64,000 nucleotides of DNA. It comes from Flavobacterium branchiicola. GTDB lineage: Bacteria > Bacteroidota > Bacteroidia > Flavobacteriales > Flavobacteriaceae. Location: positions 475,201 to 539,200 of the forward strand of contig NZ_JAGYWA010000004.1 in NCBI RefSeq assembly GCF_018383905.1, in the 5' to 3' direction. Below the pieces are notes generated by a model. The model was not told the DNA's origin. It made no database searches and saw nothing but the letters and a program-made list of their open reading frames with translations. A program made the position numbers and the translations under genes. Of this stretch, positions 41,981-62,300 are shown piece after piece. The first letter of the stretch is position 1. Each line of letters starts with the position of its first letter.

Positions 41981-42802
41981 TTAAATAGAATAAAAAATAG
42001 GCGCAGGAAAAGGATTGTTATCCCTGATTTTAATTTCGTTTTTATGATAAACAACCGAATTGGATGGCACAGTATAAGTTAGCCAGACGTTTCCTCCAAT
42101 AATAGAATCTTTTCCCACAGTAGTCTGACCGCCAAGAATAGTGCTGTTGGCATATATTATGACGTTGTCTTCAATTGTTGGATGTCTTTTTATAAATGCT
42201 TCTTCCTTTTTTACACTTAATGCGCCCAGCGTTACGCCCTGATAAATTTGTACATTATTGCCAATAACGGTTGTTTCGCCAATCACGATTCCGGTGCCGT
42301 GATCAATTGCAAAATCGCTTCCTATTTCTGCTCCTGGATGAATTTCTATACTCGTTTTGATATGCGCATATTCTGAAATTGTTCTTGCAAGAAGTTTTAA
42401 ATCCTGTTCCCACAATTGATGTGAAAAGCGATAAACCGAAATGGCAAAAAAGCCAGGATAGGAGTATAGCACTTCTTCCAGAGATTTTGCAGCCGGATCT
42501 TTTGCATAAATGGTTAGTGCATCATTTAATGCTTTTTTGTGTAAATGAGGGACTGCTCTAAAAAAGATTTCAGTTTGTTGTTTCTGATCGCTTTTTGGTG
42601 AAAAATCTAAAACTAGTTCATCAAATTGTTTTTCCAATAGCTTGAATTTATATTTGATTGTTTCCTCTGATTCAAATGATTTAGAGGTATTTGAAAACAA
42701 AATAATAAACAGGTCATCAATAAACTGATGAATTAATTTCTTTTCAGGCAGTATTACTAAATCCTGATGCTGTTTTGCTATTTCTTTGTAAAATGAACTC
42801 AT
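41981..42802 (-). CDS. cysE: Serine O-acetyltransferase (EpsC type)
   Basis: The 273-residue enzyme makes O-acetylserine from serine and acetyl-CoA. The N-terminal half is helical; the C-terminal left-handed beta-helix has hexapeptide repeats (IHPGAEIGSDFAIDHGTGIVIG, then IGETTVIGNNVQIYQGVTLGALS). A DHGTG loop contains the catalytic His-Asp pair. It lies between the sulfatase (30-base gap) and cysteine synthase (15-base gap) in the encapsulin operon, giving local O-acetylserine supply. Confidence 0.93.
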   Translation of the reverse strand: MSSFYKEIAKQHQDLVILPEKKLIHQFIDDLFIILFSNTSKSFESEETIKYKFKLLEKQFDELVLDFSPKSDQKQQTEIFFRAVPHLHKKALNDALTIYAKDPAAKSLEEVLYSYPGFFAISVYRFSHQLWEQDLKLLARTISEYAHIKTSIEIHPGAEIGSDFAIDHGTGIVIGETTVIGNNVQIYQGVTLGALSVKKEEAFIKRHPTIEDNVIIYANSTILGGQTTVGKDSIIGGNVWLTYTVPSNSVVYHKNEIKIRDNNPFPAPIFYSI

Positions 42803-42832: not shown

Positions 42833-44488
42833 TTATTTCTTAAGTGCCGCCCCGCCAGGCATTGTCTCTGGTTTAAGCTTGAATTTACTATATTCAACAA
42901 CTCCGGTTTTATCTGCCCATTCAAAATAAGAAGCCGAAAGCTTGTTCACAATTCCCGGATTTTGTTGTGCAACATTTGTGGTTTCGCCACGATCTGTTTC
43001 AAGATTATAAAGTTCCCATTCGTAAGAAGGATAAATAGAAACCAATTTCCAATTTCCATCACGAACGGCTCTGTTTCCTGCTCTTTCCCAAAATAATGGT
43101 GCGCCTCGGTCAACCTCAGAAACATTATCAAATAAAACAGGAAGCAGACTTTTCCCCGGAAGCGGATTTGCCGTTACACCATTGTATTCTTTTGGATATT
43201 GAATTCCTGCCAGTTCATAGAAAGTAGGAGCAAGATCAATAATATGTCCGGTTCCTTTATCAATTCTTCCCGCTTTTATTTTTGATGGAAACCATGCAAT
43301 AAACGGCGAGCTGAAACCTCCTTCGTGCATATTATTTTTATATTGTTGTAAAGGTGTATTCGATAAATAGGCCCAGTTTTGTTCCTGATAATCAAATGAT
43401 CCCGAAGTTCCAACCGGTCCATCATTTCTAACCAAACCTCTTCCTAATGGGTTGTAGGTATTAAATCCGCCCTGAGCGCCATTATCTGAGATAAAAATAA
43501 TCAGCGTGTTTTTATCTTTTTTAAGTGCTTTTAATTTCTCCAGAACTTTACCCACATTTTGATCCATATTATCCACCATTGCAGCATAAACTTCCATTTT
43601 TGCTTTCCAGAATTGTTTTTCGTCATACGTTAGTTTGCTCCATTCTGGAACTTCAGGATCTCTTGGACCAATAGTTTGATTGGGAGGTAAAATACCGCTG
43701 GCTCTTAATTTCTCTATTCTTTTTTCTCTTAAAATATCCCAGCCTTCATCAAATTTGCCTTTATATTTGGCAATGTCAACTGGTTTTGCCTGCAAAGGCC
43801 AGTGTGGAGCGGTAAATGCCAAATAAAGAAAGAAAGGTTTGTTCTCTTTATTTTGTTCGTCTAAGAAAGTGACTGCATTATTTCCTATTTCATCTGTAAA
43901 ATAGTACGAATCGTCTTTTGGATGCAGTTCTTCATTGTTACGAATTAGTTTTACCGGATAAGGTGTTTTTCCAAAAGGCAAAGGCTTGGTATCAAAATAA
44001 TTGGAGGCGCCTTTTAAGATTCCATAAAATTTATCAAAACCTCTTTGATTGGGCCATTGCGCCTGATCTTCAGAACCTACATGCCATTTTCCAGATAAAA
44101 GTGTGCTGTAACCGCCTGAACGGAAAACTTCTCCTAAAGTCAAAGATTCTTTGTTTAAATAACCTTGATACGCTGGCAATCCAAGATTTACATCAAAGAA
44201 ACCAACTCCTGCTTTATGTTGATATTGACCTGTTAATAATGAAGCTCTGGTTGGCGCACAAATAGAATTGTTGTAAAATTCGCGAAGTCGCAAACCTTCT
44301 GTAGCTAATTTATCCAGATTTGGTGTTTTAATTTCTGAACCATAATTCCCTAAATCAGAATATCCCATATCATCTACCAGAATAAGGATAACATTTGGCT
44401 TTGCTGAGTTCTGTGCATTTATTTGTATAAAACTGACCGCTCCGGTAAGGAAAGCAGAAAATAATAATTGTGTAATTTTAGTATTCAT
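42833..44488 (-). CDS. Arylsulfatase (Cys type), secreted
   Basis: The 551-residue sulfatase hydrolyses sulfate esters. Calcium ligands D39-D40 (VDDMGYSDLG) and the formylglycine motif C77-A-P-T-R (SICAPTRASLLTG) are present, with a signal peptide at residues 1-25. The Cys must be oxidised to formylglycine by an FGE or anSME that is not in the window. It is the first gene of the unit that ends with the encapsulin and cysteine desulfurase, which is preceded by the leader at 44489-44834. Substrate not clear. Confidence 0.93.
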   Translation of the reverse strand: MNTKITQLLFSAFLTGAVSFIQINAQNSAKPNVILILVDDMGYSDLGNYGSEIKTPNLDKLATEGLRLREFYNNSICAPTRASLLTGQYQHKAGVGFFDVNLGLPAYQGYLNKESLTLGEVFRSGGYSTLLSGKWHVGSEDQAQWPNQRGFDKFYGILKGASNYFDTKPLPFGKTPYPVKLIRNNEELHPKDDSYYFTDEIGNNAVTFLDEQNKENKPFFLYLAFTAPHWPLQAKPVDIAKYKGKFDEGWDILREKRIEKLRASGILPPNQTIGPRDPEVPEWSKLTYDEKQFWKAKMEVYAAMVDNMDQNVGKVLEKLKALKKDKNTLIIFISDNGAQGGFNTYNPLGRGLVRNDGPVGTSGSFDYQEQNWAYLSNTPLQQYKNNMHEGGFSSPFIAWFPSKIKAGRIDKGTGHIIDLAPTFYELAGIQYPKEYNGVTANPLPGKSLLPVLFDNVSEVDRGAPLFWERAGNRAVRDGNWKLVSIYPSYEWELYNLETDRGETTNVAQQNPGIVNKLSASYFEWADKTGVVEYSKFKLKPETMPGGAALKK

Positions 44489-44834
44489 TTTAAGATGCTT
44501 TTTGTTTTTGTTGTTTAAGCGATAAATGTTCTTTAATCAGATGGTTTCTGTTGCCGCAGAAATTATTTTAAGCTTTTTTAAAATATAATTATAGCACAGC
44601 ATCGTGTGATACGAACTGAATCAGATAGTTATAAATAAGCGAAATTTAGATGAAAATGATGAGTTGGTTTCGAGTTTGAGTTAAACCAAGTCATACCGAA
44701 TGAATGCGAGAATTAACAACAGCTGCACATATAACAAAAGCTGTTGTATGTGTATTTTTTAGGAAGAATGTAAGACGTATTAAGTGCTGTTGTTTTCAAA
44801 ATGTAAGTTTTAAATATTAAACTCTACTAATTCT
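44489..44834 (-). promoter_or_regulatory. 5' leader of the sulfatase-cysE-cysK-encapsulin operon
   Basis: The transcript from the promoter at 44840-44869 would carry about 345 untranslated bases. Blocks shared with the susC leader (57010-57494) include: TCTATAG.ATTAGTAGAG at the 5' end, an identical 21-base block at 44753-44773 (57400-57420 there), the Cys-codon ORF at 44713-44730, a TTTCTG-CGGCAA-CAGAAA hairpin at 44545-44562, and TTAAAGAA.ATTTATC at 44521-44536. The rest is diverged. Confidence 0.75.
44713..44730 (-). CDS. Candidate Cys-rich leader peptide MCSCC
   Basis: A five-codon ORF ATG TGC AGC TGT TGT TAA encodes M-C-S-C-C. Three of its five codons are Cys. The corresponding susC leader carries MCFCC with a synonymous difference at Cys5 (TGT here, TGC there). 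Upstream bases CAACAGC can pair with GCTGTTG covering the Cys codons. It lies about 100 nt downstream of the predicted start of transcription and 220 nt upstream of the sulfatase gene. Translation is not proven. Confidence 0.55.
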   Translation of the reverse strand: MCSCC

Positions 44835-44839
44835 ATAGA

Positions 44840-44869
44840 CAAAGTTATATTTAATATTGTAATATGCAA
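44840..44869 (-). promoter_or_regulatory. Promoter of the sulfatase-encapsulin operon
   Basis: On the minus strand TTG (44867-44869) and TAACTTTG (44840-44847) are separated by 19 bases, a canonical Bacteroidota TTG-N19-TAnnTTTG promoter. The spacing and -7 sequence are identical to those of the susC promoter. The start of transcription should lie near 44833. Confidence 0.75.
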
Positions 44870-45028
44870 ATGAAACTGTATTTTTTTTTGATAAAAAATT
44901 AATACGAGAAGTAAAGATAAGATTTTTATGTATTTAATTCATTGATTATTAGCTGTTTGTTTTGTTTTTTGTAAAAGAAATAAAACAACAACAATTTTAT
45001 AATTTAATTGTAATAATTAATCGCAGAA

Positions 45029-46288
45029 TTAGCTAAAAAGCAAAAAGGCAATTATCAACGTAATAATCACATTAAATAATTGTGCAATCAAAAAGGCCAA
45101 CAGAGGTTTCCTGCTGTTGTTTTGGAATAAATCCTTAAAGTTAGTTTCTAAACCAATACTTGTAAAAGCTAGTGCGAACCAAATTCCTTGTAAATTCTTC
45201 AAACTGTCTTTAACAGTATCCCGAACTTCGGGAGTTATAAAAAAAGAGAATAGGAGCGAGGCAGCAATAAATCCAATGACAAATTTTGGAAAACGTTCCC
45301 AAATTACACTTAATGTTGGTTTTGAATCTACAGCCTCTGCCGATTTGTTATGTGCATAAGTCCAGTAAACAGAAATTGTAAAAGCAGCTAATCCAAGTAA
45401 AACATTTTGAGAAAACTTTACGATAGTACTTATTTTTAATGCTGTTTCGCCAACCAAAGTTCCGGAAGCCACGACCGCGCCAGAAGTGTCAATACTACCT
45501 CCGAGCCAGGCCCCTGTTACTTCATCGGGGAAATTAAAATAACGGGCAATTATGGGCATAAAAATCATCATGGGAATTGCAGTTACCAAAACGATAGAAA
45601 TTACATAGGATAATTTTTTAGAATCGCCTTTTATAGCACCAGATGTTGCGATAGCTGCCGAAACGCCACAAATAGAAACTGCACTGGAAATCATCATGGT
45701 TAATTCATCATCAACTTTTAATTTTCGGCAAAGCCAAAAGGCAAAATACCAAACAGAAAGTACCACAATTAAAGCCTGAAATAATCCTAGTAAACCTGCT
45801 TTTAGAATGTCTGAAAAGATGACACTGGTTCCTAATAATATCAATCCGATTTTTACGAAAATTTCGGTAGAAAGCGCAGAACGAAACCAATCAGGAAGCT
45901 GAAAGAAATTTCCAATTATTAGACCAATAATAAGACTGAAAATTACGGCTTCTAAGTTGAGTGCTTTTATTTCTGAATTTCCGGCAATTAGCAACGCAAT
46001 AAGCGTTAAGAAATAAACAACAGGAAAAGTAAAAAGGAAATATTTTACTGATTTTCCAATTAAAAATGCGCCGAGAGCTCCAATAGAAATTAGATATAGG
46101 AATTGTAAAAAGAGGATTTTTAGATTTTCAAAATTAAAGACTTTTGTCGTTAAATCGGAAATAGCAGACCAGCTGAAAACAGAAACTTCAGGAAGAAAAA
46201 TAAAAAGGGAAATACCAATAATTAAAAATCCCAAAATTACGACTGTCCAGTCTTCGTGTAGGGTAAATTGTTTTGTTGTGGCTGACAT
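45029..46288 (-). CDS. YeiH-type putative sulfate exporter family transporter
   Basis: The 419-residue protein has about 11 membrane helices and belongs to the YeiH/UPF0324 family ('putative sulfate exporter'). It includes SICGVSAAIATSGAIKGD and GGSIDTSGAVVASGTLVGETAL, typical of the family. The transported ion is inferred only from family naming and from its place in a sulfatase operon. It is the last gene of the susC-led unit and 118 bases after the second sulfatase, with the promoter of the next unit further on. Confidence 0.85.
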   Translation of the reverse strand: MSATTKQFTLHEDWTVVILGFLIIGISLFIFLPEVSVFSWSAISDLTTKVFNFENLKILFLQFLYLISIGALGAFLIGKSVKYFLFTFPVVYFLTLIALLIAGNSEIKALNLEAVIFSLIIGLIIGNFFQLPDWFRSALSTEIFVKIGLILLGTSVIFSDILKAGLLGLFQALIVVLSVWYFAFWLCRKLKVDDELTMMISSAVSICGVSAAIATSGAIKGDSKKLSYVISIVLVTAIPMMIFMPIIARYFNFPDEVTGAWLGGSIDTSGAVVASGTLVGETALKISTIVKFSQNVLLGLAAFTISVYWTYAHNKSAEAVDSKPTLSVIWERFPKFVIGFIAASLLFSFFITPEVRDTVKDSLKNLQGIWFALAFTSIGLETNFKDLFQNNSRKPLLAFLIAQLFNVIITLIIAFLLFS

Positions 46289-46303
46289 TGTAGTTTTTTA
46301 TTT

Positions 46304-46391
46304 CCTGAAAGGTTTTCAAAACCTTGTAGGTATTAGTTATAAGTAAAGTTATTGAATAAACAAACCTACAAGGTTTTGAAAACCTTGCAGG
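46304..46391. repeat. ACCTACAAGG inverted repeat
   Basis: Arms 46304-46331 and 46364-46391 are near-perfect reverse complements (cctgaaaggttttcaaaacc...). A second element with the same arms is at 50157-50260. Both lie between genes of the same operon, so they would form a stem-loop in the polycistronic RNA. Confidence 0.75.
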
Positions 46392-46406
46392 ATGCTTGTT
46401 TTTAAT

Positions 46407-48023
46407 TTACAAATCGACAAAATATTTTTGTTTTCCAAAATCGAATTCATAATATGTCAGGTTAGGCCAAAGCGGCTTTATCAATCCTTTTTCCCAATTT
46501 TGAAGAGCAGTTTGTAATTCTTTTACTTTTTCCGGATTTTTCGCAGCTAAATCTGTTGTTTCCGATTTGTCTTTTGCCAAATTGTACAGCCAAGTTTCGT
46601 GTGTTTTACCACTGACAATTAATTTCCATTCACCACTTCTGATTGCTTTTGCATCGCCGGAACGCCAGTATAATTCTTTATGCGCTTCTTTGTTGTTATT
46701 TACGACATCAATTAAATTGACTCCGTCATAAACCCGATCTTTAGGTAAACCAGAATGTGTAACTGCAGCAATTGTACTGAAAATATCCAAAGTACTTACA
46801 GGCGATTTATATACTGTATGAGGTTTAATTTTCCCCTTCCACGAAAGTGCAAATGGAACATTTACACCGCCTTCAAAATGCGAAAATTTACCGCCTTTTA
46901 ATGGCGCATTTGTTGTCGCAAAAGTATAATCGGCACCACCGTTGTCGCTGGCAAAAATGATGATCGTATTTTCTTCAAGACCTTCTTTTTTTACCTTCGC
47001 TCTGATTCTTCCAATTGCATCATCCAATGCGCTGATCATGGCAAAATAAACACGTTTGTTTTCGTCTTTTACATTTGGGAAACGGTCGTAGTATTTTTTA
47101 CGAACCTGAAAAGGCGTGTGAGGCGCATTAAACGGAACATAAAGCAGGAACGGTTTTGTTTTATTTTTATCGATAAAAGCTTCGGCTTCATCAGCAAATG
47201 TTTCGGTTAAATAGGCTTTATCTTTTATGATGGTAGTATCTCGGCGAATTTGTCCGATTCCGACGCGACCATTTCCCCAAATCATTTTATCAGTAAAATC
47301 TTTATGATGGTGATTGATAATATCCGGATTATCATCTTCTGGTGTGTAAAGTGAAAATGCCTGATAAAAGCCATAGTGATAATCAAAACCTCTGTCTAAT
47401 GGGAAAAATCCTTTGTTATGCCCCAAATGCCATTTTCCAATGATTGCTGTGCTATAACCTTGTTTTTTGGCTAAATCGGCAAAAGTAATTTCAGATTGTG
47501 GCAAACCTTGCGTTGCTATTGAAGCTTCATTTGGATAATTGATTTTATCATTTAATCTCCAACTATTAGTGTTGATCAAATACTTGAAAGCATAATATTC
47601 CAGATTGTTTTTTGGATATCGGTCGCCTGGCTGATATTCATGTCCGAAACGTTCCTGATAGCGCCCCGTAAGTAATCCGGCTCGCGATGGTGAACAAATT
47701 GAAGCGGATACATAACCATCGGCAAAAGTAACTCCGGAAGCTGCAAGAGAATCAATTTGCGGTGTTGGTGTTGCTTTTCCACCGTAAAGCGAAATATCAT
47801 ATTTTCCTAAATCATCCGCCAGAAGAATAATGATATTGGGCTTTTTTTCTGAATTTAAAGTGTCTTTTTTTGCCAGAAATACTGCTTTTCCTTCGGCTAA
47901 TTTTTGGTCTGTTTTTATTAAAGTTCCGTCTGTATTTATTGGCCAGAAAAGAAATAAAGCTAACAGAAAAAGTACAATCAGAATGGGTATAACTATCTTT
48001 TTATTGAATTTAAATTTTGCCAT
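46407..48023 (-). CDS. Sulfatase (Cys type), membrane-anchored
   Basis: Starting at the ATG at 48023 (MAKFKFNKK), this is a 538-residue sulfatase with an N-terminal membrane anchor (residues about 10-27), ADDLGKYD, and formylglycine motif C110-S-P-S-R (SICSPSRAGLLTG). The longer frame from 48182 is made of the GTCATTTCGA repeat and was rejected. It follows the rhodanese/thioredoxin gene after a 194-base gap holding that repeat. The substrate is unknown. Confidence 0.92.
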   Translation of the reverse strand: MAKFKFNKKIVIPILIVLFLLALFLFWPINTDGTLIKTDQKLAEGKAVFLAKKDTLNSEKKPNIIILLADDLGKYDISLYGGKATPTPQIDSLAASGVTFADGYVSASICSPSRAGLLTGRYQERFGHEYQPGDRYPKNNLEYYAFKYLINTNSWRLNDKINYPNEASIATQGLPQSEITFADLAKKQGYSTAIIGKWHLGHNKGFFPLDRGFDYHYGFYQAFSLYTPEDDNPDIINHHHKDFTDKMIWGNGRVGIGQIRRDTTIIKDKAYLTETFADEAEAFIDKNKTKPFLLYVPFNAPHTPFQVRKKYYDRFPNVKDENKRVYFAMISALDDAIGRIRAKVKKEGLEENTIIIFASDNGGADYTFATTNAPLKGGKFSHFEGGVNVPFALSWKGKIKPHTVYKSPVSTLDIFSTIAAVTHSGLPKDRVYDGVNLIDVVNNNKEAHKELYWRSGDAKAIRSGEWKLIVSGKTHETWLYNLAKDKSETTDLAAKNPEKVKELQTALQNWEKGLIKPLWPNLTYYEFDFGKQKYFVDL

Positions 48024-48071
48024 AGTTCTTGGTTTGTTAGTTTTAATTAAGTTTTTAGGGCGTATTAATTT

Positions 48072-48180
48072 GTCATTTCGATCCCGAAGCTTCGGGAGAG
48101 AAATCACACTAGAAATTCCGCAAAGCAAGTCACCAATCTTTGTCGATAAACGAGTGTGATTTCTCCTCCGTCGAAATGAC
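48072..48180. repeat. GTCATTTCGA palindromic element
   Basis: The ends GTCATTTCGA (48072-48081) and TCGAAATGAC (48171-48180) are perfect inverted repeats, with an internal 16-base palindrome TCCCGAAGCTTCGGGA at 48082-48097. The middle part CACTAGAAATTCCG and ACCAATCTTTGTCGA match the element at 18533. It sits between two genes of the sulfur operon. Confidence 0.75.
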
Positions 48181-48217
48181 AAACTGGACGTTTTTCAGCC
48201 ATTTGTATCAAAAAAGA

Positions 48218-48931
48218 TCACTTAGCCAAAGCCACATCGACATCATTTTTCAAATTTTCAAAACCTTCTTTTTTGAAAATAATTTTGCCGTTTTTGTATA
48301 AAATCAAAGTCGGAAAAACTTTTATGGTTTTTAGATCTGCAATAATTTGTGTATTATCTTCTAAATCAATTTCTACGATTTTTAGATTTTCGCCATATTG
48401 CGCTTTTATGGTTTCCAAAACAGGTTTTACTTTTTTGCAAGCGCCACAATAAACAGATCCAATATCAACGAGAACCGTATTGTTTTCGGTAACGATTTTG
48501 TTGTATTCTGCTAATGTTAGTTTGCTTTTTGAATTGGCGAAATAAGGTTTTCCACCGCCAATCCAGTTTGCAATTCCACCTTCCAGACTATAAACTTCTT
48601 TAAAACCTTTTTTTAATAAATCGTCAGCAAGCCAGACGCTTCTTCCTGCGCCAATAGAGTAGGTAAATACAGGTTTTGATTTATCTAAAGCAGCAATTCG
48701 TTTGGCATAATCTTTAGATTCTAAATTAAAGTTTACAGCACCAATAATATGATTCAGTGCAAACTCTTCAGGACCTCTGGCATCAATAATCTGCGGATTT
48801 TTTTGACCTTGGATTTTAGTGTAAAATGAATCTAAAGAGACCGTATTTCCACTTTTATTTTGCGAAGAGACAGCAATTGTAAATAGAAATACAATTGCTG
48901 TTATACTATTTTTTAAAACTCGGTTTTTCAT
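48218..48931 (-). CDS. Exported rhodanese-like/thioredoxin fusion
   Basis: The 237-residue protein has a signal peptide (residues 1-24), a rhodanese-like domain (about 30-128) and a thioredoxin domain with C162-G-A-C165 (VYCGACKKVKP). In the rhodanese domain the active-site loop reads Y91-S92-I-G-A-G-R-S, so the catalytic Cys is replaced by Ser and it should not carry a persulfide. The thioredoxin site is intact, suggesting periplasmic disulfide or sulfur-relay chemistry. It is 9 bases after the sterol-desaturase gene. Confidence 0.88.
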   Translation of the reverse strand: MKNRVLKNSITAIVFLFTIAVSSQNKSGNTVSLDSFYTKIQGQKNPQIIDARGPEEFALNHIIGAVNFNLESKDYAKRIAALDKSKPVFTYSIGAGRSVWLADDLLKKGFKEVYSLEGGIANWIGGGKPYFANSKSKLTLAEYNKIVTENNTVLVDIGSVYCGACKKVKPVLETIKAQYGENLKIVEIDLEDNTQIIADLKTIKVFPTLILYKNGKIIFKKEGFENLKNDVDVALAK

Positions 48932-48940
48932 AATTAATTT

Positions 48941-50011
48941 TTAAGATTGTACCTGTTCTAATTCTAATACTGGTGTAGCTATTTCTTCAGCCAAAATTAC
49001 TTTTGGTTTTACTGGAACCGATAGAACTCCATCAGCCAAGGCACTTCCCTCTTTTTTAGATTTAAATATTGGCCATAAAAACTGCGCGTACCATTCTTCT
49101 TGTTTGTATGATTTCATACCGTATGATTTTGGGAATTTTCGCGTAATTAATCCTGTTCCGAAGATCATATCCCAGATAAAAAACATATTCCCAAAGTTTC
49201 CTTTAAAATGCCCAACACCGTCTCCGCTTGTATCTGCGTGATGCGCGTGATGCGTTGCCGGAGTTGAAATTACTCTTTCTAAAACCCATGCAATTGGATG
49301 TAAAACTTTGTATTTGTAAAATGGTTTGTCCCACGCAATGCTCGAATGTGCACCCAAAGTGATGAAACTTTTGATAACCAAAACAAACAATGCAGGCAAT
49401 CCTAAACCTAAATACGTTAAAGTTGCAGTCAAATAAATTTGAGAGAAGAAAACGGTGTAAATAAAGTTTTGTCTTGAAGCCATCGCCATTCCCATATAAG
49501 GAGCAGAGTGATGTGTTCTGTGAAAACGCCATAAAAACGGAACCTGATGGTGCAATCTATGGTACCAGTATTGTGTTAAATCATCGGCAATGGCAATTAG
49601 GAAAAATCCTCCCCAAAACGGAACCCATGAAAGTGAATTCTCGAGATTCGGAATTAAATAAGGTAAAGCGGTTAAGCTGAAAAAAGCAATAATAGGTGGC
49701 AAAAGTAATTTTGGCGCTAAAAAGGAAACAATATCAATTTTGCGTTCTTCGCCTGTCCATTGATCATCGTATAAACCTGCTGCAAATTCTATAATTCCCA
49801 GGACGATCATAAACACTGTTAATCCCCAGGTTCTGATATTTGCAAAAGCAGGTTGTGCAAATTCTAAAAAGGATGGTATTTCTATATGTGAATCGGCAAT
49901 AACGCCGTTGCTTAATTTAAAATAAAGATATATTGCCACCACGGGCAAGGAATAAATGAAGAAACTAATAGTCAAGTCTCTTGTTAATTTAGAGTTTTGT
50001 ACTGTTGCCAT
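48941..50011 (-). CDS. Sterol desaturase / fatty acid hydroxylase family membrane protein
   Basis: The 356-residue protein has several membrane helices and di-iron His motifs: YWYHRLHHQ, RFHRTHHSAP and THHAHHADTSG, plus GHFKGNFGN. It is a member of the integral-membrane fatty acid hydroxylase superfamily; the substrate is not known, and sulfur-linked roles are unestablished. It lies inside the sulfur unit, 9 bases ahead of the rhodanese gene and 7 bases after the small ORF at 50019. Confidence 0.88.
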   Translation of the reverse strand: MATVQNSKLTRDLTISFFIYSLPVVAIYLYFKLSNGVIADSHIEIPSFLEFAQPAFANIRTWGLTVFMIVLGIIEFAAGLYDDQWTGEERKIDIVSFLAPKLLLPPIIAFFSLTALPYLIPNLENSLSWVPFWGGFFLIAIADDLTQYWYHRLHHQVPFLWRFHRTHHSAPYMGMAMASRQNFIYTVFFSQIYLTATLTYLGLGLPALFVLVIKSFITLGAHSSIAWDKPFYKYKVLHPIAWVLERVISTPATHHAHHADTSGDGVGHFKGNFGNMFFIWDMIFGTGLITRKFPKSYGMKSYKQEEWYAQFLWPIFKSKKEGSALADGVLSVPVKPKVILAEEIATPVLELEQVQS

Positions 50012-50018
50012 GATTTTT

Positions 50019-50138
50019 TTATTTTAAAAATTGATTAATTAGCGCTAATCCTCCGGCTAAAATGGCCAGCGGAACTAAAAATAAAATTGCCCCAACGACA
50101 ATTTTTTTTCCTATAATTTCATAATCTACTCGTTTCAT
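50019..50138 (-). CDS. 39-residue single-TM small protein
   Basis: A short ORF (ATG at 50138, stop at 50019) encodes 39 residues beginning MKRVDYEIIGKKIVV and containing one hydrophobic helix (about residues 14-35, VGAILFLVPLAILAGGLALI). It is tightly packed before the sterol-desaturase gene (7 bases), which supports it as a real, co-translated gene. It is of unknown function, possibly a membrane helper of that protein. Confidence 0.7.
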   Translation of the reverse strand: MKRVDYEIIGKKIVVGAILFLVPLAILAGGLALINQFLK

Positions 50139-50156
50139 AATAGTTCGTTTTATGTT

Positions 50157-50260
50157 CTGCAAGGTTTTCAAAACCTTGTAGGTATGATTTTTCAATCTTT
50201 AAATCAATTAAAGTTTTTGATGAATATTTTGAAACCTACAAGGTTTTGAAAACCTTGCAG
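50157..50260. repeat. ACCTACAAGG inverted repeat
   Basis: Arms 50157-50183 and 50234-50260 are perfect or near-perfect reverse complements, the same family as 46304-46391. It lies between the arylsulfatase and the small membrane ORF of the same operon. Confidence 0.75.
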
Positions 50261-50274
50261 GTTGGGTATAAAAG

Positions 50275-52191
50275 TTAATTAGAACTTCCTCCAGGTTTTG
50301 TTGCCTGTTTGATTAAATCGGAAACTGTTTTGTTTTTATCAGCTCCGGTATTGTGGATTCTTCTATTGTAAACATCCTGCCAGTCGATCAATGGATAAAC
50401 ATTGTTTTCTTTGGCTTGTTCATCAAACAGTTTCTTAAGTTCGGCTAATTTTTCAGGGTATTTTTTAGCAAGATCATTACGTTCGTTAAAATCTTCGTTT
50501 AGATTATAAAGTTCCCAGACATCAGTATCAAAATTACTTGGGGCAGGTTTTTCATTATTTCCAAACGATTTTTTTACAGCAAATGAATCTGGTAAATGCG
50601 CCGCTCCGGCTTTCCATCCGTCTTTATAAATAGCTCTGTTACCAAAAATATAGTAGTACTGAACTTTGTGCAATGATTCCGCTTTTGGATTATCTATAGA
50701 TGCTTTAAAAGTTGAACCCTGAATAATATCTTGTTTAATTTCTTTGATGTATTCCGGTGCTTTAATTCCAACAATATCTAGTGTTGTAGGAAGTAAATCG
50801 GTTACGTGACTGTATTGATTTCTAATACCACCTTTGTCTTTAATTCCGTTTGGATAAAATACAATCAAAGGATTACGAGTTCCGCCTTCAGATTGTGCGT
50901 CTTGTTTCCAGTTTTTGAAAGGAACATTCGTAGCCTGAGCCCATCCTAAAGGATAATTAGTATTTAAACCTTTTGCAGTTCCAATTTCTCCAATATTGTT
51001 TAAGTTGCTTTGAAGATTTTCTTCATCCGTTTTTCCCTGAGCAAATAAATTTTGGTTGATTGTACCTTGTAAAGTTCCTTCTTTACTCGCTCCGTTATCA
51101 CCAATGGCAACAAAAATCAAAGTATTGTCAAGCTGACCACTTTCTTTTAAATAGTTTACAACTCTTCCAATTTCATAATCAGTATACGTTAGGAATCCGG
51201 CGTAAACTTCCATGAATCTTGCATACACTTTCTTTTGTTCCGGGCTTAGTTTTTTCCAATCTGTAATAAGCGGATTACGCTCCGGAAGTACTGCGTTTTG
51301 TGGAAATACACCTAATTTCTTTTGGTTTGCCAATACTTTTTCACGGTAAACATCATAACCTTCGTCAAATTTTCCTTTGTATTGATCACTCCATTTTTCA
51401 GCAACCTGATGAGGTGCGTGAACTGCTCCCGGAGCATAGTATAAAAAGAAAGGTTTTCCAGGTGCGGCTTTTTGTTGTTTTTGAATATAACTGATGGCTT
51501 TATCCGTAATTAATTCATTCAAGTGGCGTCCGTCTGGTTTAATATGAACCTGATCTTCTACTAAATCCGGATTGTACTGATCGGTTTGTGAACCTAAGAA
51601 TCCATAGAAATGATCGAAACCTTTTCCGGTTGGCCATCTGTCAAACGGTCCTGCATCGGTTGCATCTTCATCCGGAGTTACACCATATTTTCCAACGGCA
51701 AAAGTATTGTAACCGTTCTCACGTAAAATCTCTGCAATTGTTCCTTTATCAGAAGGAATTCTTCCGTCCCAACCCGGAAATCCGGCTGATAAAATAGTAT
51801 GAGAAAATCCGCTTACGTGAACTCTTCCTGAATTTCTTCCAGTCAATAAAGCAGCACGGGTTGGAGCACAAATTGCTGTTGTATGGAAATTAGTATAACG
51901 TAAACCGTTATTTGCAAGGTTATCAAAAGTTGGCGTATTGATCAAACCTCCAAAAGCGCTTGATGCTCCAAATCCTACATCGTCTAATAAAATCCAAACA
52001 ATATTTGGTGCGCCTTTTGGTGCCTTTACAGGCTCTGGCCAATATTCCTTAGAATCTGCCAAAGTTTTTCCTATTGTACCTTTAAACTCTTGTTTTTCTT
52101 GTGCTATTCCTAATTGTGCAATTAGTAAAGCGGTAATCAAAAGCCCTTTTTTCGGACTTTTGATTGCGATGCTATTTTTAAATTTTTTCAT
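50275..52191 (-). CDS. Arylsulfatase (Cys type), secreted
   Basis: The 638-residue sulfatase has a signal peptide (residues 1-30, ending GIAQ), metal motif LLDDVGFGASSAFGG and formylglycine motif C108-A-P-T-R (AICAPTRAALLTG). It is the long arylsulfatase form of the AtsA type, with a C-terminal subdomain. It is downstream of susD with a 196-base gap containing an inverted repeat. It likely releases sulfate from organosulfates delivered by the SusCD pair. Confidence 0.93.
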   Translation of the reverse strand: MKKFKNSIAIKSPKKGLLITALLIAQLGIAQEKQEFKGTIGKTLADSKEYWPEPVKAPKGAPNIVWILLDDVGFGASSAFGGLINTPTFDNLANNGLRYTNFHTTAICAPTRAALLTGRNSGRVHVSGFSHTILSAGFPGWDGRIPSDKGTIAEILRENGYNTFAVGKYGVTPDEDATDAGPFDRWPTGKGFDHFYGFLGSQTDQYNPDLVEDQVHIKPDGRHLNELITDKAISYIQKQQKAAPGKPFFLYYAPGAVHAPHQVAEKWSDQYKGKFDEGYDVYREKVLANQKKLGVFPQNAVLPERNPLITDWKKLSPEQKKVYARFMEVYAGFLTYTDYEIGRVVNYLKESGQLDNTLIFVAIGDNGASKEGTLQGTINQNLFAQGKTDEENLQSNLNNIGEIGTAKGLNTNYPLGWAQATNVPFKNWKQDAQSEGGTRNPLIVFYPNGIKDKGGIRNQYSHVTDLLPTTLDIVGIKAPEYIKEIKQDIIQGSTFKASIDNPKAESLHKVQYYYIFGNRAIYKDGWKAGAAHLPDSFAVKKSFGNNEKPAPSNFDTDVWELYNLNEDFNERNDLAKKYPEKLAELKKLFDEQAKENNVYPLIDWQDVYNRRIHNTGADKNKTVSDLIKQATKPGGSSN

Positions 52192-52242
52192 TGTTTTATA
52201 GTTTTAATAGTTATATAATCTTTTTATCTTAGGGCTATTTTC

Positions 52243-52381
52243 AACACATAGAAACATAGTTTTTGCAATTGATGAAAGGCGTTTCACTTGTTTAAATGCA
52301 CATAGCCAATCTATGTGTGAGAAACGAGTTTCTTTCTAAACTCTTTATTAGTCAAAAAAAAAATCTATGTTTCTATGTGTT
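52243..52381. repeat. Inverted repeat between susD and the sulfatase gene
   Basis: Arms 52243-52259 (aacacatagaaacatag) and 52365-52381 are perfect 17-base reverse complements, separated by about 105 bases that contain another short inverted pair. It lies inside the operon and may separate expression of susCD from the enzymes downstream. Confidence 0.65.
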
Positions 52382-52387
52382 TAAAAA

Positions 52388-53860
52388 TTAATATCCAGGG
52401 TTTTGAGGTAAACCTACCGGATCAATATTTCTTTCACTTTGTGGAATCGGATAAAGATTATTTCTTTCTGAAACCGAGTTTTTAGCCGTCACTTTTTTCA
52501 CTTCTGTAACCAGAGTTCCCCAACGTACCAGGTCAAACCATCTTTGCCCTTCCTGAACAAATTCTTTTTTGCGTTCTTCCTGAATTGCCGCTCTAAAAGT
52601 GGTTTGATTTAATCCAGCTAAATCAACTGTTGCATCTGGCGTTGTAATTGGTTTTGCAAAAGCTCTTCTTCGTACCTGATTAATCAATTCGTACGCTTCG
52701 GCAGTTGGTCCGCTTTGTTCATTTATCGCTTCCGCTAAAGACAATAAAATGTCTGCATAACGTATTACCGGAAAATTGATTGCGACATTGGCTGGAGTTG
52801 CCAGATTGCTTATGTCCAGATATTTTTTGAAGATTGGTTTCGGGAAAGTGTATAAGGTTCCGGTAGCAGGATTCAGTAATTGTTTCCCGTAACTTACATC
52901 TCTTCGGATATCGCCAGCAGCATAAATATCATAAAATAAAGCTACATCTGAAATAATATCGGCAGGTTCAGTAGCAGTAAATCCAGTGAAAGATGTTGCC
53001 TGAAAAGTACTTCCGCTAGAACCATTTCCGGCCTGATTTGGCTCAAACTGTACAGAGAAAATATGCTCTTTTCCGTTTTTCTTCGTTTTAGTAAAGATGT
53101 CCTGAAAGTTTTCAAACAAAGCATATCCGTAACCACCATTGATTACTTCTTTGGCTTTTGTAATAGCATTTGGCCAATCTTTTCTTGTCAGATAGACTTT
53201 CGTCAAAATCGCTTTTGCAGCTCCGGAAGTGGCTCGTCCGGCATCGGCAGCAGGATAAGCAGCAGGCAGACTTTCAGCATCTTTTAAATCTGAAATAATT
53301 TGCGCATAAACTTCATCAACTGTCGCTCTTTTTGATTTTAAACTTTCTAATTGAATAGAAGTTGGCTCATGCAAAACAATTGGAACACCGCCCCAAAGAC
53401 GAACTGCTTGAAAGTACAATAACCCTCGAATGAATTTTGCCTCGTTTACTAATCTTGTTTTTACTGCTTCTGTTCCGGCTACTTTCGGTACGTTATCAAT
53501 TGAAACATTCGCTCTGTTGATTCCAGCGTAAATTTGTCTCCAAGCTACTTGAACACGATCAGAGGTTGCATCATGTGTCAAACTGCTCAAAGCCCTAACT
53601 TGAGGATTTGTTGCAGAAACTCCGGCTGCCGCATAATCAGTAGCCATATCGGTCAGGAAGTATAGATTTCTTCCAAACAAACTTTGTTCTCCCGGATCTA
53701 AACTTAAGGATGCATAGACTGCAGTAACGCTGGCAACGGCATCGTCCTGAGTTTTAAAATAATTGTCTTCGGTTACAAAAGAGGTTGGTGTTACCTCCAG
53801 ATCGGTGCACGAAATAAAGAGTCCTGCACTTATTATTAGTGTTATTAATATCTTTTTCAT
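52388..53860 (-). CDS. RagB/SusD family outer-membrane lipoprotein
   Basis: The 490-residue protein has a lipoprotein signal ending in C18 (GLFISCTDLEVTP) and the SusD TPR-like architecture with AKFIRGLLYFQAVRLWGGVPIV and the C-terminal RKKEFVQEGQRWFDLVRWG. It is the surface lid that captures substrate for the SusC channel. The pair is directly linked to sulfatases and sulfur genes, suggesting that the import target is a sulfated compound rather than a plain glycan (inference). Confidence 0.94.
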   Translation of the reverse strand: MKKILITLIISAGLFISCTDLEVTPTSFVTEDNYFKTQDDAVASVTAVYASLSLDPGEQSLFGRNLYFLTDMATDYAAAGVSATNPQVRALSSLTHDATSDRVQVAWRQIYAGINRANVSIDNVPKVAGTEAVKTRLVNEAKFIRGLLYFQAVRLWGGVPIVLHEPTSIQLESLKSKRATVDEVYAQIISDLKDAESLPAAYPAADAGRATSGAAKAILTKVYLTRKDWPNAITKAKEVINGGYGYALFENFQDIFTKTKKNGKEHIFSVQFEPNQAGNGSSGSTFQATSFTGFTATEPADIISDVALFYDIYAAGDIRRDVSYGKQLLNPATGTLYTFPKPIFKKYLDISNLATPANVAINFPVIRYADILLSLAEAINEQSGPTAEAYELINQVRRRAFAKPITTPDATVDLAGLNQTTFRAAIQEERKKEFVQEGQRWFDLVRWGTLVTEVKKVTAKNSVSERNNLYPIPQSERNIDPVGLPQNPGY

Positions 53861-53877
53861 TTTATATTTTTTTTTAC

Positions 53878-56800
53878 TTAGAATGTTACGTTCAGACCCG
53901 AGATGAATGTTTTTGAGTTTGGATAAGAACCAAAGTCAATTCCCGGATATAAGTTATTTTGTTCGTATGAACTTACCTCTGGATCATAACCAGTGTATTT
54001 TGTCCATGTAATCAGGTTTTCGGCAGAGACATAAAATTTCACGCTTTTTGTTCCCAGTTTTTTAGAAACACTTTTTGGCAGCGTGTACCCAAGCGTGATT
54101 AATTTTAATCGTAAGAAAGAAGCATCTTCTACATAACGCTCAGAAACTATTCCTAGAGGAGAACTTGATGCTCTCGGGATTTCATTGCTTGGGTTTGTTG
54201 GAGTCCAGCGATCTACAAGAGCTTCAGAAGCGTTTGTTCCTAATGTTGAAATTTCCAATTGTTGGTTTAAAGCATTAAATATTTTACCTCCATAAGATCC
54301 CTGAAAAGAGAAATTTAAATCGAAATCATGATAAGAAATTGTGTTGCTGAAACTTCCAACAAATTTTGGCTGAGAAGTTCCTAAATCTCCTTTGTCAAGA
54401 GCAGTAATAACGCCGTCTCCGTTGGTATCGACATATCTTCTGTCTCCAACTTTAGTATTCGCTAAACTGTTTATTTTTGGCTGTGTATTAACTTCTTCCT
54501 GAGTCTGGAAAATGCCGTTTGTTTTATATCCCCAGAAAGTACCGAGAGGCAATCCGACTTTTACAATTACAGGTTGTTGTTGTAATAAAGAACCGTTTGG
54601 AACAACTGGAAAAAACTGATCGACACCATTTCCTATTGCGACAACTTTATTTTTATTGGCAGAGAAAACAAAATTAGAATTCCATGAAAAGTTTTCTGTT
54701 TTAATGTTTTCTGTAATCAAACCAATTTCAATCCCTTTATTTTCAACACCTCCAATGTTTTGAAGCACTGTAGCATAACCAGAAGTTAATGGAACCGGAA
54801 CGTTGATTAATAGATCGTTTGTTTTTTTGTAATATGCATCAAAAACAAAGTTGATTTTTCGGTCGAATAAGGATAAGTCTAAACCAATATTGTACTGATT
54901 TGTTTTTTCCCATTTCAAATCCGGATTGGCCAGTCGGGTAGGAGCAAGACCCGTTTGTAAAGTTCCTCCAAAGGCATAATTAACAGAACCCATTGAAGCC
55001 AATGAAAGATAGTTTCCAATTTCCTGATTTCCTGTTGTTCCTGCTGTAATTCTTAATTTAGCTTCGGTTACGCCTTTTATATTTTTAGCGAAATCTTCAT
55101 CGGTAATATTCCATGAAAATCCAGCCGATGGAAAGTATCCCCAAAGCGATTCTGAACCAAATCTTGACGAACCATCCGCACGGGCAGAAAGTGTTAAGTT
55201 GTATTTTCCTCTATAAGAATAATTAACTCTTGCAAGCCATGATTTTAATACACTTTCAAATGCATCACTATACGGTTTTACAGCAACACCATCCTGAAGC
55301 GCATTATAAGTATTAGCATCATTTACAAAAGTATTTGATCCCGCATTTACTACTTCACCTTTAGTGTATTGTAGTGTATAACCTCCCAAAGCTGAGAATT
55401 TATGATCTTCACCAAAAGTAGTATTGTAGTTTAGGGTGTTTTCATTCAATACCGTACTTACTGTTCTTTCGCCGACAGAAGCCAAACCTTTTGTTCCTGC
55501 ACCTGTAGTAGTAGTTGATGGAGCGTAGTAATTTTGTTTTGTATCAATAACATCTCCACTTACAGCAACTTTTGCAACCAATTTTTTGGTTATTTTATAT
55601 TCACCAAATAAACTGGTTAGGATTCTGTTGATTTTGGTTTCGTTAGTAGTGTTTTCCAAATCATTAATTGGATTTCCTATAATGCCATTTACAGCTGTCG
55701 AATATGGATTATTCGTTAAATTATAACTTCCGTCAGGATTTTTAATTGGTACTACAGGTGGCTGATACAAAGCAACAACTAATGGATTGGGCTGACGTCC
55801 GGCGCTTGCTCCGCCATTAGTTCCAACTCCGTTTGCAGTTGAATTGGTATAGTTTGCATTTACTCCGAATTTAAAGGCCTGAGAATAGTTTTTTTCGTAG
55901 TTAGCACGCAACGAAATACGTTTAAAATCGGTAGCAATTACAATTCCGTCCTGATCAAAATATCCCGCAGAAATCGTATATCTTGAGCGATCATCTCCAC
56001 CTGAAAATGTCAATTGATGATTTTGAACTGGTGCCGCAGTTCTAAACACAGCCGATTGCCAGTCATAACCTCCTGAAGTTTTTAGTGCTTCAATTTGTGC
56101 CGGAGTAAAAGAAGGCGCTTGTCCAATACTTGCCTGAACGTCATTTCGTAAACTTGCCCATTGGCTGGCATTCATTAAATCTAATTTTTTAGAAACATTT
56201 TGAAATCCGAAATAGCCCTGATACGAAATGTTGTCTTGTCCTTTTGTGCCTTTTTTAGTCGTAATTATTACAACACCATTTGCTCCTCGTGATCCATAGA
56301 TTGCCGTTGCTGAAGCATCTTTTAAAACTTCAATCGATTCGATATCAGCAGGATTAATAGTAGAAAGTACGTTTATTGTAGCTCCCGCATTAGCAACTCC
56401 TGCCGTGCTGTTGCTATTATCATTGTAAATCAAAATACCATCTAATACATACAGTGGCTCATTACCCGCTGTGATTGAGTTTCCACCTCTAATACGTACA
56501 CTTGAAGATGCTCCGGGACGTCCCGAACTTTGCGTAACTACCACACCAGGAATTGCACCTCTAAGTAAATTATCTGCCGATGAGGTTACTTGTGCTAAAT
56601 TGGCTTTTGGAACAGAGGCAACAGAACCCGTAATGTCTTTTCTCTTTTGAGTTCCGTAACCCACAACTACCAATTCGTCTAATTCCTGACGTTCTTCTTT
56701 TAGGTGGATAGTGACTGGGTTTTTATCAACAATAATTTCCGTTTTTTTGTATCCAATGTAGCTTACGATTAAAGTGTATGGAAATTTTTGACCGGTTTGA

Positions 56801-57009
56801 AAATAAAACTTTCCTTCAGCATCCGTCTGAACTCCGTGCGTAGTACCTTTTATGACTACCGATGCACCTATAATGGGTTGATTTGTAATATCATCTACAA
56901 CTGTTCCGTCAAGTTTGGATTGAATAAGGGGTTTTGTATTCTGAGCATTAATTCCCGCCGTCAGTAGCAACAGAAATAATATTGAATATATTTTTAAATT
57001 TTTTTTCAT
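53878..57009 (-). CDS. SusC/RagA family TonB-linked outer membrane protein
   Basis: From the ATG at 57009 this is a 1043-residue TonB-dependent transporter with a signal peptide (residues 1-23), an N-terminal carboxypeptidase-D-like domain (DDITNQPIIGASVVIKG), the plug (ELVVVGYGTQKRKDITGSV, SVRIRGGNSI, GSRGANGVVIITTKKG) and a 22-strand barrel. The 54 bases before it in frame lie in the leader. It is 17 bases ahead of susD and heads the sulfur-scavenging unit. The substrate is unknown. Confidence 0.94.
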   Translation of the reverse strand: MKKNLKIYSILFLLLLTAGINAQNTKPLIQSKLDGTVVDDITNQPIIGASVVIKGTTHGVQTDAEGKFYFQTGQKFPYTLIVSYIGYKKTEIIVDKNPVTIHLKEERQELDELVVVGYGTQKRKDITGSVASVPKANLAQVTSSADNLLRGAIPGVVVTQSSGRPGASSSVRIRGGNSITAGNEPLYVLDGILIYNDNSNSTAGVANAGATINVLSTINPADIESIEVLKDASATAIYGSRGANGVVIITTKKGTKGQDNISYQGYFGFQNVSKKLDLMNASQWASLRNDVQASIGQAPSFTPAQIEALKTSGGYDWQSAVFRTAAPVQNHQLTFSGGDDRSRYTISAGYFDQDGIVIATDFKRISLRANYEKNYSQAFKFGVNANYTNSTANGVGTNGGASAGRQPNPLVVALYQPPVVPIKNPDGSYNLTNNPYSTAVNGIIGNPINDLENTTNETKINRILTSLFGEYKITKKLVAKVAVSGDVIDTKQNYYAPSTTTTGAGTKGLASVGERTVSTVLNENTLNYNTTFGEDHKFSALGGYTLQYTKGEVVNAGSNTFVNDANTYNALQDGVAVKPYSDAFESVLKSWLARVNYSYRGKYNLTLSARADGSSRFGSESLWGYFPSAGFSWNITDEDFAKNIKGVTEAKLRITAGTTGNQEIGNYLSLASMGSVNYAFGGTLQTGLAPTRLANPDLKWEKTNQYNIGLDLSLFDRKINFVFDAYYKKTNDLLINVPVPLTSGYATVLQNIGGVENKGIEIGLITENIKTENFSWNSNFVFSANKNKVVAIGNGVDQFFPVVPNGSLLQQQPVIVKVGLPLGTFWGYKTNGIFQTQEEVNTQPKINSLANTKVGDRRYVDTNGDGVITALDKGDLGTSQPKFVGSFSNTISYHDFDLNFSFQGSYGGKIFNALNQQLEISTLGTNASEALVDRWTPTNPSNEIPRASSSPLGIVSERYVEDASFLRLKLITLGYTLPKSVSKKLGTKSVKFYVSAENLITWTKYTGYDPEVSSYEQNNLYPGIDFGSYPNSKTFISGLNVTF

Positions 57010-57110
57010 TTCTTTGTAATGGTTTAAGTAATTAACAAGGCGCCTTGAGAGCTGATTTTTCAACCCTCTGAGTGTTTCCTTGATTTAGTGATAAATATTC
57101 TTTAAGCCTC

Positions 57111-57136
57111 GCCATTTCTGTTGCCGCAGAAATGGC
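57111..57136 (-). promoter_or_regulatory. Conserved CTGCGGCAACAG hairpin
   Basis: On the minus strand GCCATTTCTG pairs perfectly with CAGAAATGGC around loop CGGCAA. There is no T run after it, so it is not a plain terminator. The equivalent hairpin at 44545-44562 has a 6-bp stem with the identical loop. It sits 5 bases after the CCC-containing ORF. Confidence 0.75.
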
Positions 57137-57141
57137 TTTTT

Positions 57142-57174
57142 TTATTTACAGCAACAGCTTTGCATTTTTTTCAT
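57142..57174 (-). CDS. Candidate Cys-rich leader peptide MKKMQSCCCK
   Basis: A ten-codon ORF, ATG at 57174 to TAA at 57142, encodes MKKMQSCCCK with three consecutive Cys codons (TGT TGC TGT). Its stop lies 5 bases before the perfect hairpin at 57111-57136, so a ribosome paused at the Cys codons could overlap and melt the hairpin. It is 165 bases before susC. A matching ORF is not present in the other leader. Confidence 0.5.
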   Translation of the reverse strand: MKKMQSCCCK

Positions 57175-57359
57175 TTTAGTTTTTTTAATTGGTTAATTAT
57201 TTTCTTTTTAAAATATAGGTATATTCAAAAACCTTTTTAATGCAAAACAAGCATCAATCAGATTGTTGTAATTCGATAAAAGTAATCTTGTGGTGAAATT
57301 TAGATTTCGTTTCCAGATTTATAAAATCAATCTGCATAACGAAGTAATTGCGTTGGGAA

Positions 57360-57377
57360 TTAGCAACAGAAGCACAT
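57360..57377 (-). CDS. Candidate Cys-rich leader peptide MCFCC
   Basis: The five-codon ORF ATG TGC TTC TGT TGC TAA encodes M-C-F-C-C. Directly upstream a 6-bp stem ATAACA/TGTTAT with loop CTTTT is formed. The equivalent ORF in the sulfatase-encapsulin leader encodes M-C-S-C-C at the same place relative to the shared blocks. Confidence 0.55.
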   Translation of the reverse strand: MCFCC

Positions 57378-57499
57378 ATAACAAAAAGTGTTATAAGTAT
57401 ATTTTTTAGGAAGAATGTAATACGATATGCTTTCGGTTGTTTTCAAAATATAGTTTTTTTGGTTTCAAAAATTATTTTAAACTCTACTAATCCTATAGA

Positions 57500-57529
57500 C
57501 AAAGTTAATTTTAATATAATAAAAACCAA
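57500..57529 (-). promoter_or_regulatory. Promoter of the susC-led operon
   Basis: On the minus strand TTG (57527-57529) and TAACTTTG (57500-57507) are separated by 19 bases, matching the Bacteroidota consensus. Identical architecture to the promoter at 44840-44869. The start of transcription should lie near 57493. Confidence 0.75.
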
Positions 57530-62094: not shown

Positions 62095-62300
62095 TTTAAA
62101 AGTTTCAAGTATCATGTTTTACGTTTCAGGTTTCAGGTTTCAAGTTTCAAGTTCTCACTCAAACGCAAAAGAAAAAAAGTTTCAAGTTCTGCGAATAACT
62201 TGAAACATTAAACAAAAATATAGTCTCAAGTTTCACATTCCAGGTTTCAAGTTCTTCAAATAACTTGAAACTTGGAACATGAAACAAAAAAACAAAAAAA
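62095..62300. repeat. GTTTCAAGTTTC word repeat inside the nitrate operon
   Basis: The 211-base gap between the cytochrome b and the nitrate reductase genes is filled with GTTTCAAGTTTC words and their inverse (aacttgaaacttggaacatgaaac). A similar word occurs at 434-460. It would form a stem-loop in the operon transcript. Confidence 0.7.

Follow-up and report, generated by a model that had tools for sequence, protein, structure and literature searches.

Polycysteine, leaderless upstream open reading frames (uORFs) of mycobacteria were reportedly described by Canestrari in 2020. In Actinobacteria more widely, leader peptides of cys genes that work without terminators are covered in the available excerpt of one study (PMC1262725). 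Another example comes from Rhodobacterales, where uORFC-8-2 precedes cysS and carries tandem Cys codons; the excerpted report proposes ribosome-mediated attenuation for it (PMC8632094). Within the genus Flavobacterium, leader-peptide attenuation has been predicted before amino-acid operons of Flavobacterium psychrophilum, according to part of a further report (PMC9723704). DonS RNAs, 78-128 nt in length, lie opposite susC homologs in Bacteroides, as an extract of their description states (PMC7366714). Here, two homologous leaders of Flavobacterium branchiicola (Flavobacteriaceae, Bacteroidota) are compared with these systems. Both lie in a 64,000-nucleotide stretch (the window; NCBI RefSeq assembly GCF_018383905.1, contig NZ_JAGYWA010000004.1, positions 475,201 to 539,200), each ahead of a sulfur operon and each with a five-codon open reading frame of the form MCxCC (ORF1).

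We consider it probable that these leaders attenuate genes for sulfate-ester scavenging and cysteine synthesis through leader peptides that respond to cysteine. The ORFs, their codon-level conservation, a hairpin at the start codon and the gene context are present in the DNA; translation, ribosome stalling and the direction of the response are predicted from them. The two leaders contain the following features:

44840-44847, minus strand: -7 box TAACTTTG of the sulfatase-cysE-cysK-encapsulin operon, a match to the Bacteroidota -7 consensus
44822-44839, minus strand: 18-bp element TCTATAGAATTAGTAGAG, a conserved sequence and probable operator over the start site
44727-44751, minus strand: small hairpin with the ORF1 start codon in its 3' arm
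44713-44730, minus strand: leader ORF1, MCSCC and stop
57500-57507, minus strand: -7 box TAACTTTG of the susCD-sulfatase operon, a match to the Bacteroidota -7 consensus
57482-57499, minus strand: 18-bp element TCTATAGGATTAGTAGAG, a conserved sequence
57374-57398, minus strand: small hairpin with the ORF1 start codon in its 3' arm
57360-57377, minus strand: leader ORF1, MCFCC and stop

Pairwise alignment shows the two minus-strand leaders to be homologous. They begin alike, as a sequence-only reading of the window had claimed: in each, the -7 box TAACTTTG (the Bacteroidota consensus is TAnnTTTG) is followed by TCTATAG(A/G)ATTAGTAGAG (44822-44847 and 57482-57507). The five-codon ORFs are found where that reading placed them, ATGTGCAGCTGTTGTTAA at 44713-44730 and ATGTGCTTCTGTTGCTAA at 57360-57377, and the TGT/TGC difference between them at Cys5 is indeed synonymous. 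Their shared relative position also holds, with offsets of 109 and 122 nt from a transcription start predicted from the position of the -7 box and a single 13-nt alignment gap before the ORF. The ORF pattern has two matches in the window and none in 100 shuffles, and four in the whole 5.4-Mb genome, where a reversed-pattern control has none. The two genome matches outside the window lie in coding DNA, according to a by-eye reading of the surrounding sequence, so the bare pattern arises by chance and proves little alone; it is the shared position and the conservation that make the two window ORFs meaningful.

Conservation was followed in leaders fetched through leader similarity or through a hairpin described below, and not through the ORF. 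When one leader was compared by BLAST with 150 genomes of the genus, 58 genomes had matches at E<=0.01, many of these matches being short fragments. Fifty matches in 28 genomes were better than 1e-18; 49 were analysed, the 50th being the second window leader. In these 49 leaders ORF1 reads MCxCC in 46 and has one Cys replaced in three (MSICC, MCNCF and MYFCC). Loci with the hairpin pattern were then added, 80 of which were listed from at least 119 stretches, and all 80 are labelled Flavobacterium or "Flavobacteriaceae bacterium". The resulting set numbers 90 distinct leaders that combine the -7 box with an element of the TCTATA(G/T) type, among them one (L078) added by hand after its ORF was seen; outside it stand susC leaders with TCTATCA, mostly without MCxCC, and loci with other element variants. 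The five-codon ORF occurs in 90 of 90, 107-125 nt from the predicted start and with start and stop codons kept throughout, and Cys occupies codons 2, 4 and 5 in 87.

Substitutions in ORF1 were counted by parsimony on a tree made from the flanks, with the ORF excluded. The three Cys codons underwent no first-position, three second-position and 25 third-position changes, and all 25 of the latter are exchanges between C and T. Such exchanges make up 417 of the 762 changes from C or T in the flanks (55%), which puts the probability of 25 out of 25 near 3e-7, a naive value given that sites and lineages are not independent. The X codon changed 13, 7 and 6 times at positions 1, 2 and 3 (26 changes in total) and encodes F, S, M, I, N, K, H or C. 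No change of the start codon appears on the tree, and the stop codon changed twice, from TAA to TAG and to TGA. Three diverged leaders (L078, L038 and L039) carry MCCCC amid other flanks and with a different start-codon hairpin (by eye for L038 and L039). Third positions of Cys codons that change only between C and T, a free X codon and interchangeable stops together argue that the ORF is conserved as coding. The sequence-only reading had named conservation of the bases and not of the ORF as the outcome that would speak against it; among the homologous leaders the outcome favours the ORF. The leaders thus share with trp-type attenuators a short ORF, conserved as coding, whose codons include those for the amino acid concerned.

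The susC leader of the window contains a second Cys ORF (ORF2), which had been overlooked, and conserved hairpins, one of which has a copy ahead of the sulfatase gene:

57142-57174, minus strand: leader ORF2, MKKMQSCCCK and stop, in the susC leader
57111-57136, minus strand: conserved hairpin GCCATTTCTG-CGGCAA-CAGAAATGGC; its plus-strand reading resembles an intrinsic terminator, with seven T
57047-57070, minus strand: hairpin with covariation, lying between the conserved one and susC
44545-44564, minus strand: conserved hairpin, here as TTTCTG-CGGCAA-CAGAAA, in a copy ahead of the sulfatase gene

ORF2, with the sequence ATGAAAAAAATGCAAAGCTGTTGCTGTAAATAA, follows an A-rich stretch, a context that favours translation starts in this phylum and that ORF1 lacks. 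The conserved hairpin was found in 103 distinct rows, of which four are antisense readings and 99 are sense loci. An ORF of 6-13 codons ends shortly 5' of the hairpin in 96 of the 99 sense loci and holds at least one Cys in 90 and at least two in 81; the six ORFs without Cys and the three loci without an ORF include sulfatase leaders. Variants of ORF2 gain or lose whole codons (CCCC; MKKRMCR; MKLMCCK). Among 58 ORF2s of 33 nt that start with MK, the middle Cys codon never loses its TG and changes only from C to T, the first and last Cys codons are less strictly kept (8 and 3 inferred first- or second-position changes, respectively), and codons 3 and 6 are free to vary. A third ORF, with its start inside the hairpin (MARLKEHLSL...), was set aside and taken as RNA, its frames differing among leaders and the window sulfatase copy lacking it. 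A second group of susC paralogs (L062, L063, L071, L079, L124, L137 and others) carries the element TCTATCAAATTAGTAGAG where it was read, with MCxCC lost to remnants such as MHHYG and MRSFC and with ORF2 mostly kept as MKKRMCCR.

No sense intrinsic terminator was found between ORF1 and the first gene in either window leader. The terminator-like sites inside these leaders belong to the opposite strand, and one sense-strand match lies within the sulfatase gene. A lenient terminator script flagged 20 of the 49 BLAST leaders in sense and 37 in antisense; five consecutive T within the nine bases printed after the stem occurred in 0 of the 20 sense-flagged leaders, and runs of at least six T stand elsewhere in 10 of the 49. 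Of the attenuation proposed in the sequence-only reading, the Cys leader ORF conserved as coding is therefore upheld, and classical trp-type attenuation with a sense terminator is not supported. With no such terminator found, the shut-off step would most likely be Rho-dependent premature termination, or translational control through an inhibitory fold.

In the proposed mechanism, Cys-codon leader peptides would gauge charged tRNA-Cys in cis, through MCxCC in both leaders and also through MKxMQxCCCK in the susC leader. With cysteine in good supply, the Cys codons would be read, ribosomes would end at the stop codon and the remaining leader would stay untranslated, a state favouring shut-off; the distance from ORF1 to the gene is 224 nt in the sulfatase leader and 350 nt in the susC leader, where ORF2 partly bridges it. 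When cysteine is scarce, ribosomes would stall on the Cys codons, and a stalled ribosome could shield or refold the leader. Stalling would then lead to expression of the sulfatase/cysE/encapsulin and susCD/sulfatase operons, by which sulfate would be freed from esters and cysteine made.

Several observations weigh against cysteine-responsive attenuation, the missing sense terminator among them. One Cys is absent from three of the 90 ORF1s. The start context of ORF1 is poor for Flavobacterium, with T at -3 and the start codon in a hairpin; initiation in this genus benefits from an A at -3 and from an open start region (PMC6847099). Pairing with G would likewise limit a third base to exchanges between C and T, and the upstream leader is well conserved overall (a mean of 5.0 changes per site, compared with 17.8 downstream), so that part of the conservation of ORF1 may not be coding. 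The lowest-energy fold of the sulfatase leader contains a helix between ORF1 and an upstream segment, a helix that outdoes most shuffles on three of five measures. In a group of susC paralogs with the element TCTATCAAATTAG, which stands outside the 90, MCxCC has been lost in all 17 classified leaders. A leader model applied with strict filters to 299 genomes of the family had two matches, the window's genome and G060, both within its own genus, and none in the 235 other genera sampled, although diverged forms may escape such filters. The aligned sequence is thus confined, which is no evidence against Cys leaders in other groups; outside the family, the search covered the hairpin pattern, among the matches listed.

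The conservation of bases could instead reflect RNA structure, with ORFs that are not sensors: the start-codon hairpin, a long-range helix joining ORF1 to the AACAACAG segment upstream of it, or base pairs between CUGUUGY and the loop GGCAACAG. This explanation is unlikely in our view, and the structural counts bear on it from both sides. They were made on 53 of the 90 leaders (under 92% identical) and compared with 500 shuffles. The start-codon hairpin is paired in 89% of cells and shows two-sided changes at 4 of its 10 pairs, which 0 of 500 shuffles matched; however, the double changes occur in four cells only, and its further pair types were reached by 47 of 500 shuffles. For the long-range helix, the paired cells, the covariation score and the double-change cells were reached by 4, 15 and 38 of 500 shuffles, and slid versions of the helix were beaten on these measures, but the number of double-change pairs was reached by 265 of 500 and the pair at position 3 of Cys5 is broken in 18 of 53 leaders. 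The long-range helix may exist in part; as the explanation of the Cys codons it was rejected on these mixed counts, which led us to rate attenuation slightly lower and structure slightly higher, and it is kept as a possible extra. After 13 of the 103 hairpin rows were dropped (nine without a recognised element in range and the four antisense readings), the loop CGGCAA accompanied an MCxCC-type ORF1 in 73 of 73 classified leaders and TTGCAG accompanied the loss of ORF1 in 17 of 17. The Cys codons CUGUUGY and the loop GGCAACAG have complementary sequences and could pair, yet the association probably goes back to a single event within one paralog group. Candidate partners of the Cys codons in a mutually exclusive, antiterminator-like pairing are the upstream segment (mixed counts) and the loop (probably that single evolutionary event). 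What structure leaves unexplained is the codon phase, the free X codon, the interchange of stops, the in-frame Cys insertions of ORF2 and the occurrence of MCCCC in other flanks.

Alternatively, the leader could mainly be the site of a DonS-like cis-antisense RNA, a plus-strand transcript that would run from near the start of susC to the hairpin and repress susC; we hold this to be quite improbable. DonS RNAs lie opposite susC homologs in the excerpted description (PMC7366714), and a terminator-like structure does lie opposite the 5' region of susC here: on the plus strand the hairpin is followed by a T run, of at least five T in 92 of the 99 sense loci, and the block adjoining it is conserved. 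Moreover, the hairpin core TTCTGYNGCARCAGAA stands shortly before SusC-like genes in several genera of Flavobacteriaceae. In one (L115) it lies between FecR-like and SusC-like genes (named by eye), and in three more (L250, L256 and L260) before SusC-like ORFs, 59-86 nt from the first ATG across the four loci (by eye). Of 14 hairpin loci read, these last account for three, one (L253) has neither a long ORF across it nor SusC nearby, and ten lie inside long open frames; a one-mismatch hairpin search of 397 family genomes proved too loose to use. The occurrence of the core before SusC-like genes in four other genera also led to the rejection of the hairpin as a Cys-specific switch. Against a mainly antisense function, L014, L015 and L047 lack the T run, the promoter motif TAnnTTTG stands on the plus strand, in the interval separating the hairpin from the susC start, in just 2 of 38 aligned leaders (chosen from 90 candidates, under 93% alike) and not in that of the window, and an antisense RNA would exclude ORF1 and ORF2, leaving their codon-level conservation unexplained. 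A DonS-like antisense RNA may end at the susC hairpin, and such an RNA can coexist with leader peptides. Control by a DNA-binding regulator alone, with the peptides as translated relics or tuners of basal translation, would account for the element or a close variant near genes where no MCxCC was seen (PhyH-like, other susC) and for the susC group that lost MCxCC; the selection on the Cys codons is too specific for relics, and this possibility appears very remote.

A DNA-binding regulator at TCTATAG.ATTAGTAGAG probably acts on both promoters. The sequence-only reading took this element for the promoter, which is probably wrong: it sits 3' of the -7 box, and a copy with one mismatch occurs in the opposite orientation before a dehydrogenase gene in the window's genome, so an operator fits better. 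In relatives, TCTATAGAATTAGTAGAG or a near match lies near genes for a PhyH-like dioxygenase, an unknown membrane protein and a sulfatase (named by eye; L067, L068, L069, L073, L074, L075 and L076), which would make these loci a candidate sulfur regulon of an unknown regulator. The reversed copy belongs to L009 (G000:C2 near 21978; positions 1500-1900 of that locus), before what appears by eye to be a Glu/Leu dehydrogenase gene. The leader of this gene contains, in order, the ORF MKNFSRNIIPFMCSETMCCMMNYAMKWR, a sense terminator with at least seven T and a second Cys-rich ORF; both ORFs are rich in Cys and Met, with the first peptide also conserved in five further genomes (L061, L064, L065, L070 and L072). 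The arrangement has the look of a genuine sulfur amino acid attenuator, of a related design and in the same genome.

The genes downstream of the two window leaders bear out the claim that they handle cysteine, sulfate esters and an encapsulin, both operons carrying such sulfur genes:

42833-44488, minus strand: sulfatase, first gene of its operon
41981-42802, minus strand: serine O-acetyltransferase-like protein (CysE/EpsC)
41054-41965, minus strand: cysteine synthase CysK
40072-40992, minus strand: family 2A encapsulin shell protein
38163-40088, minus strand: encapsulin cargo cysteine desulfurase
53878-57009, minus strand: SusC/RagA TonB-dependent receptor, with ATG at 57009 (the ORF finder extends it to TTG at 57063)
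52388-53860, minus strand: SusD
50275-52191, minus strand: sulfatase

The susC operon further holds sulfatases, a rhodanese-thioredoxin protein and a membrane protein that we take to be YeiH-like. Behind the 49 BLAST leaders, the first gene is SusC in 33, CysE-like in eight, a sulfatase in seven and an encapsulin in one; these labels denote motif or N-terminal resemblance, and four of the 49 were assigned from sequence (L012, L019 and L020 as CysE-like, L031 as SusC). Whichever gene leads, the leader thus keeps its place at the head of the sulfur operon. An Rfam search of 36000-64000 at E<=1 returned ten weak matches, all below gathering scores and none in either leader. Three intergenic inverted repeats (46298-46398, 50156-50264 and 62224-62291) matched microRNAs in Rfam by chance. 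AAGGTTTTCAAAACCTTGTAGGT and its complement are common to the first two, and the three are perhaps a repeat family or two-way terminators.

Taking the pieces together, a two-tier cysteine gauge can be proposed tentatively, as a possibility whose chances fall somewhat short of even. In it, MCxCC and then MKxMQxCCCK, the latter set against the susC hairpin, would join a sulfur regulator, possibly together with an antisense RNA, in setting the transport and cleavage of sulfate esters, so that the attenuator would steer SusCD scavenging, and not just biosynthesis, without an intrinsic terminator. If cysteine-responsive attenuation is correct, such leader peptides extend to a further, distant phylum, where they can be as short as five codons and can come two to a leader. 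An amino-acid attenuator would then govern a SusCD/sulfatase system, tying genes of the polysaccharide utilization locus (PUL) type to sulfur supply and not to glycan supply. The leaders would also allow attenuation that needs no intrinsic terminator to be tested in bacteria without Shine-Dalgarno sequences.

The design had been called unfamiliar in Bacteroidota, and no cysteine leader peptide for this phylum was found in the searched open-licence literature. The nearest case by taxonomy, F. psychrophilum, shares the genus and the use of leader peptides, and the excerpt of that report names no cysteine leader, sulfatase or susC (PMC9723704). The DonS-like RNAs of Bacteroides share the terminator-like hairpin opposite the 5' region of susC in the extracts at hand (PMC7366714, PMC11697453), and the window case is known from sequence alone. 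The uORFC-8-2 of Rhodobacterales resembles the window leaders in its tandem Cys codons within a conserved uORF (PMC8632094). In the same excerpt, however, it is longer, has Cys usually at codons 14-15 and is followed by an intrinsic terminator and cysS, whereas the window leaders have no sense terminator that was found and precede other genes. The mycobacterial and actinobacterial cys leaders, as far as the excerpted accounts go, likewise have a run of Cys codons near the stop, ahead of sulfur or cysteine genes, and no conserved intrinsic terminator. In contrast to the leaderless mycobacterial uORFs, ORF1 begins 107-125 nt from the predicted transcription start, has five codons and starts within a hairpin. 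It also differs from the actinobacterial systems, on the same partial accounts, in the tandem ORFs of the susC leaders, in its unrelated phylum and in its targets, which comprise outer-membrane import and sulfatases besides synthesis. Cys leader peptides are thus already known from Actinobacteria and Rhodobacterales, and what would be new here is their presence in Bacteroidota, in a five-codon form and doubled within one leader.

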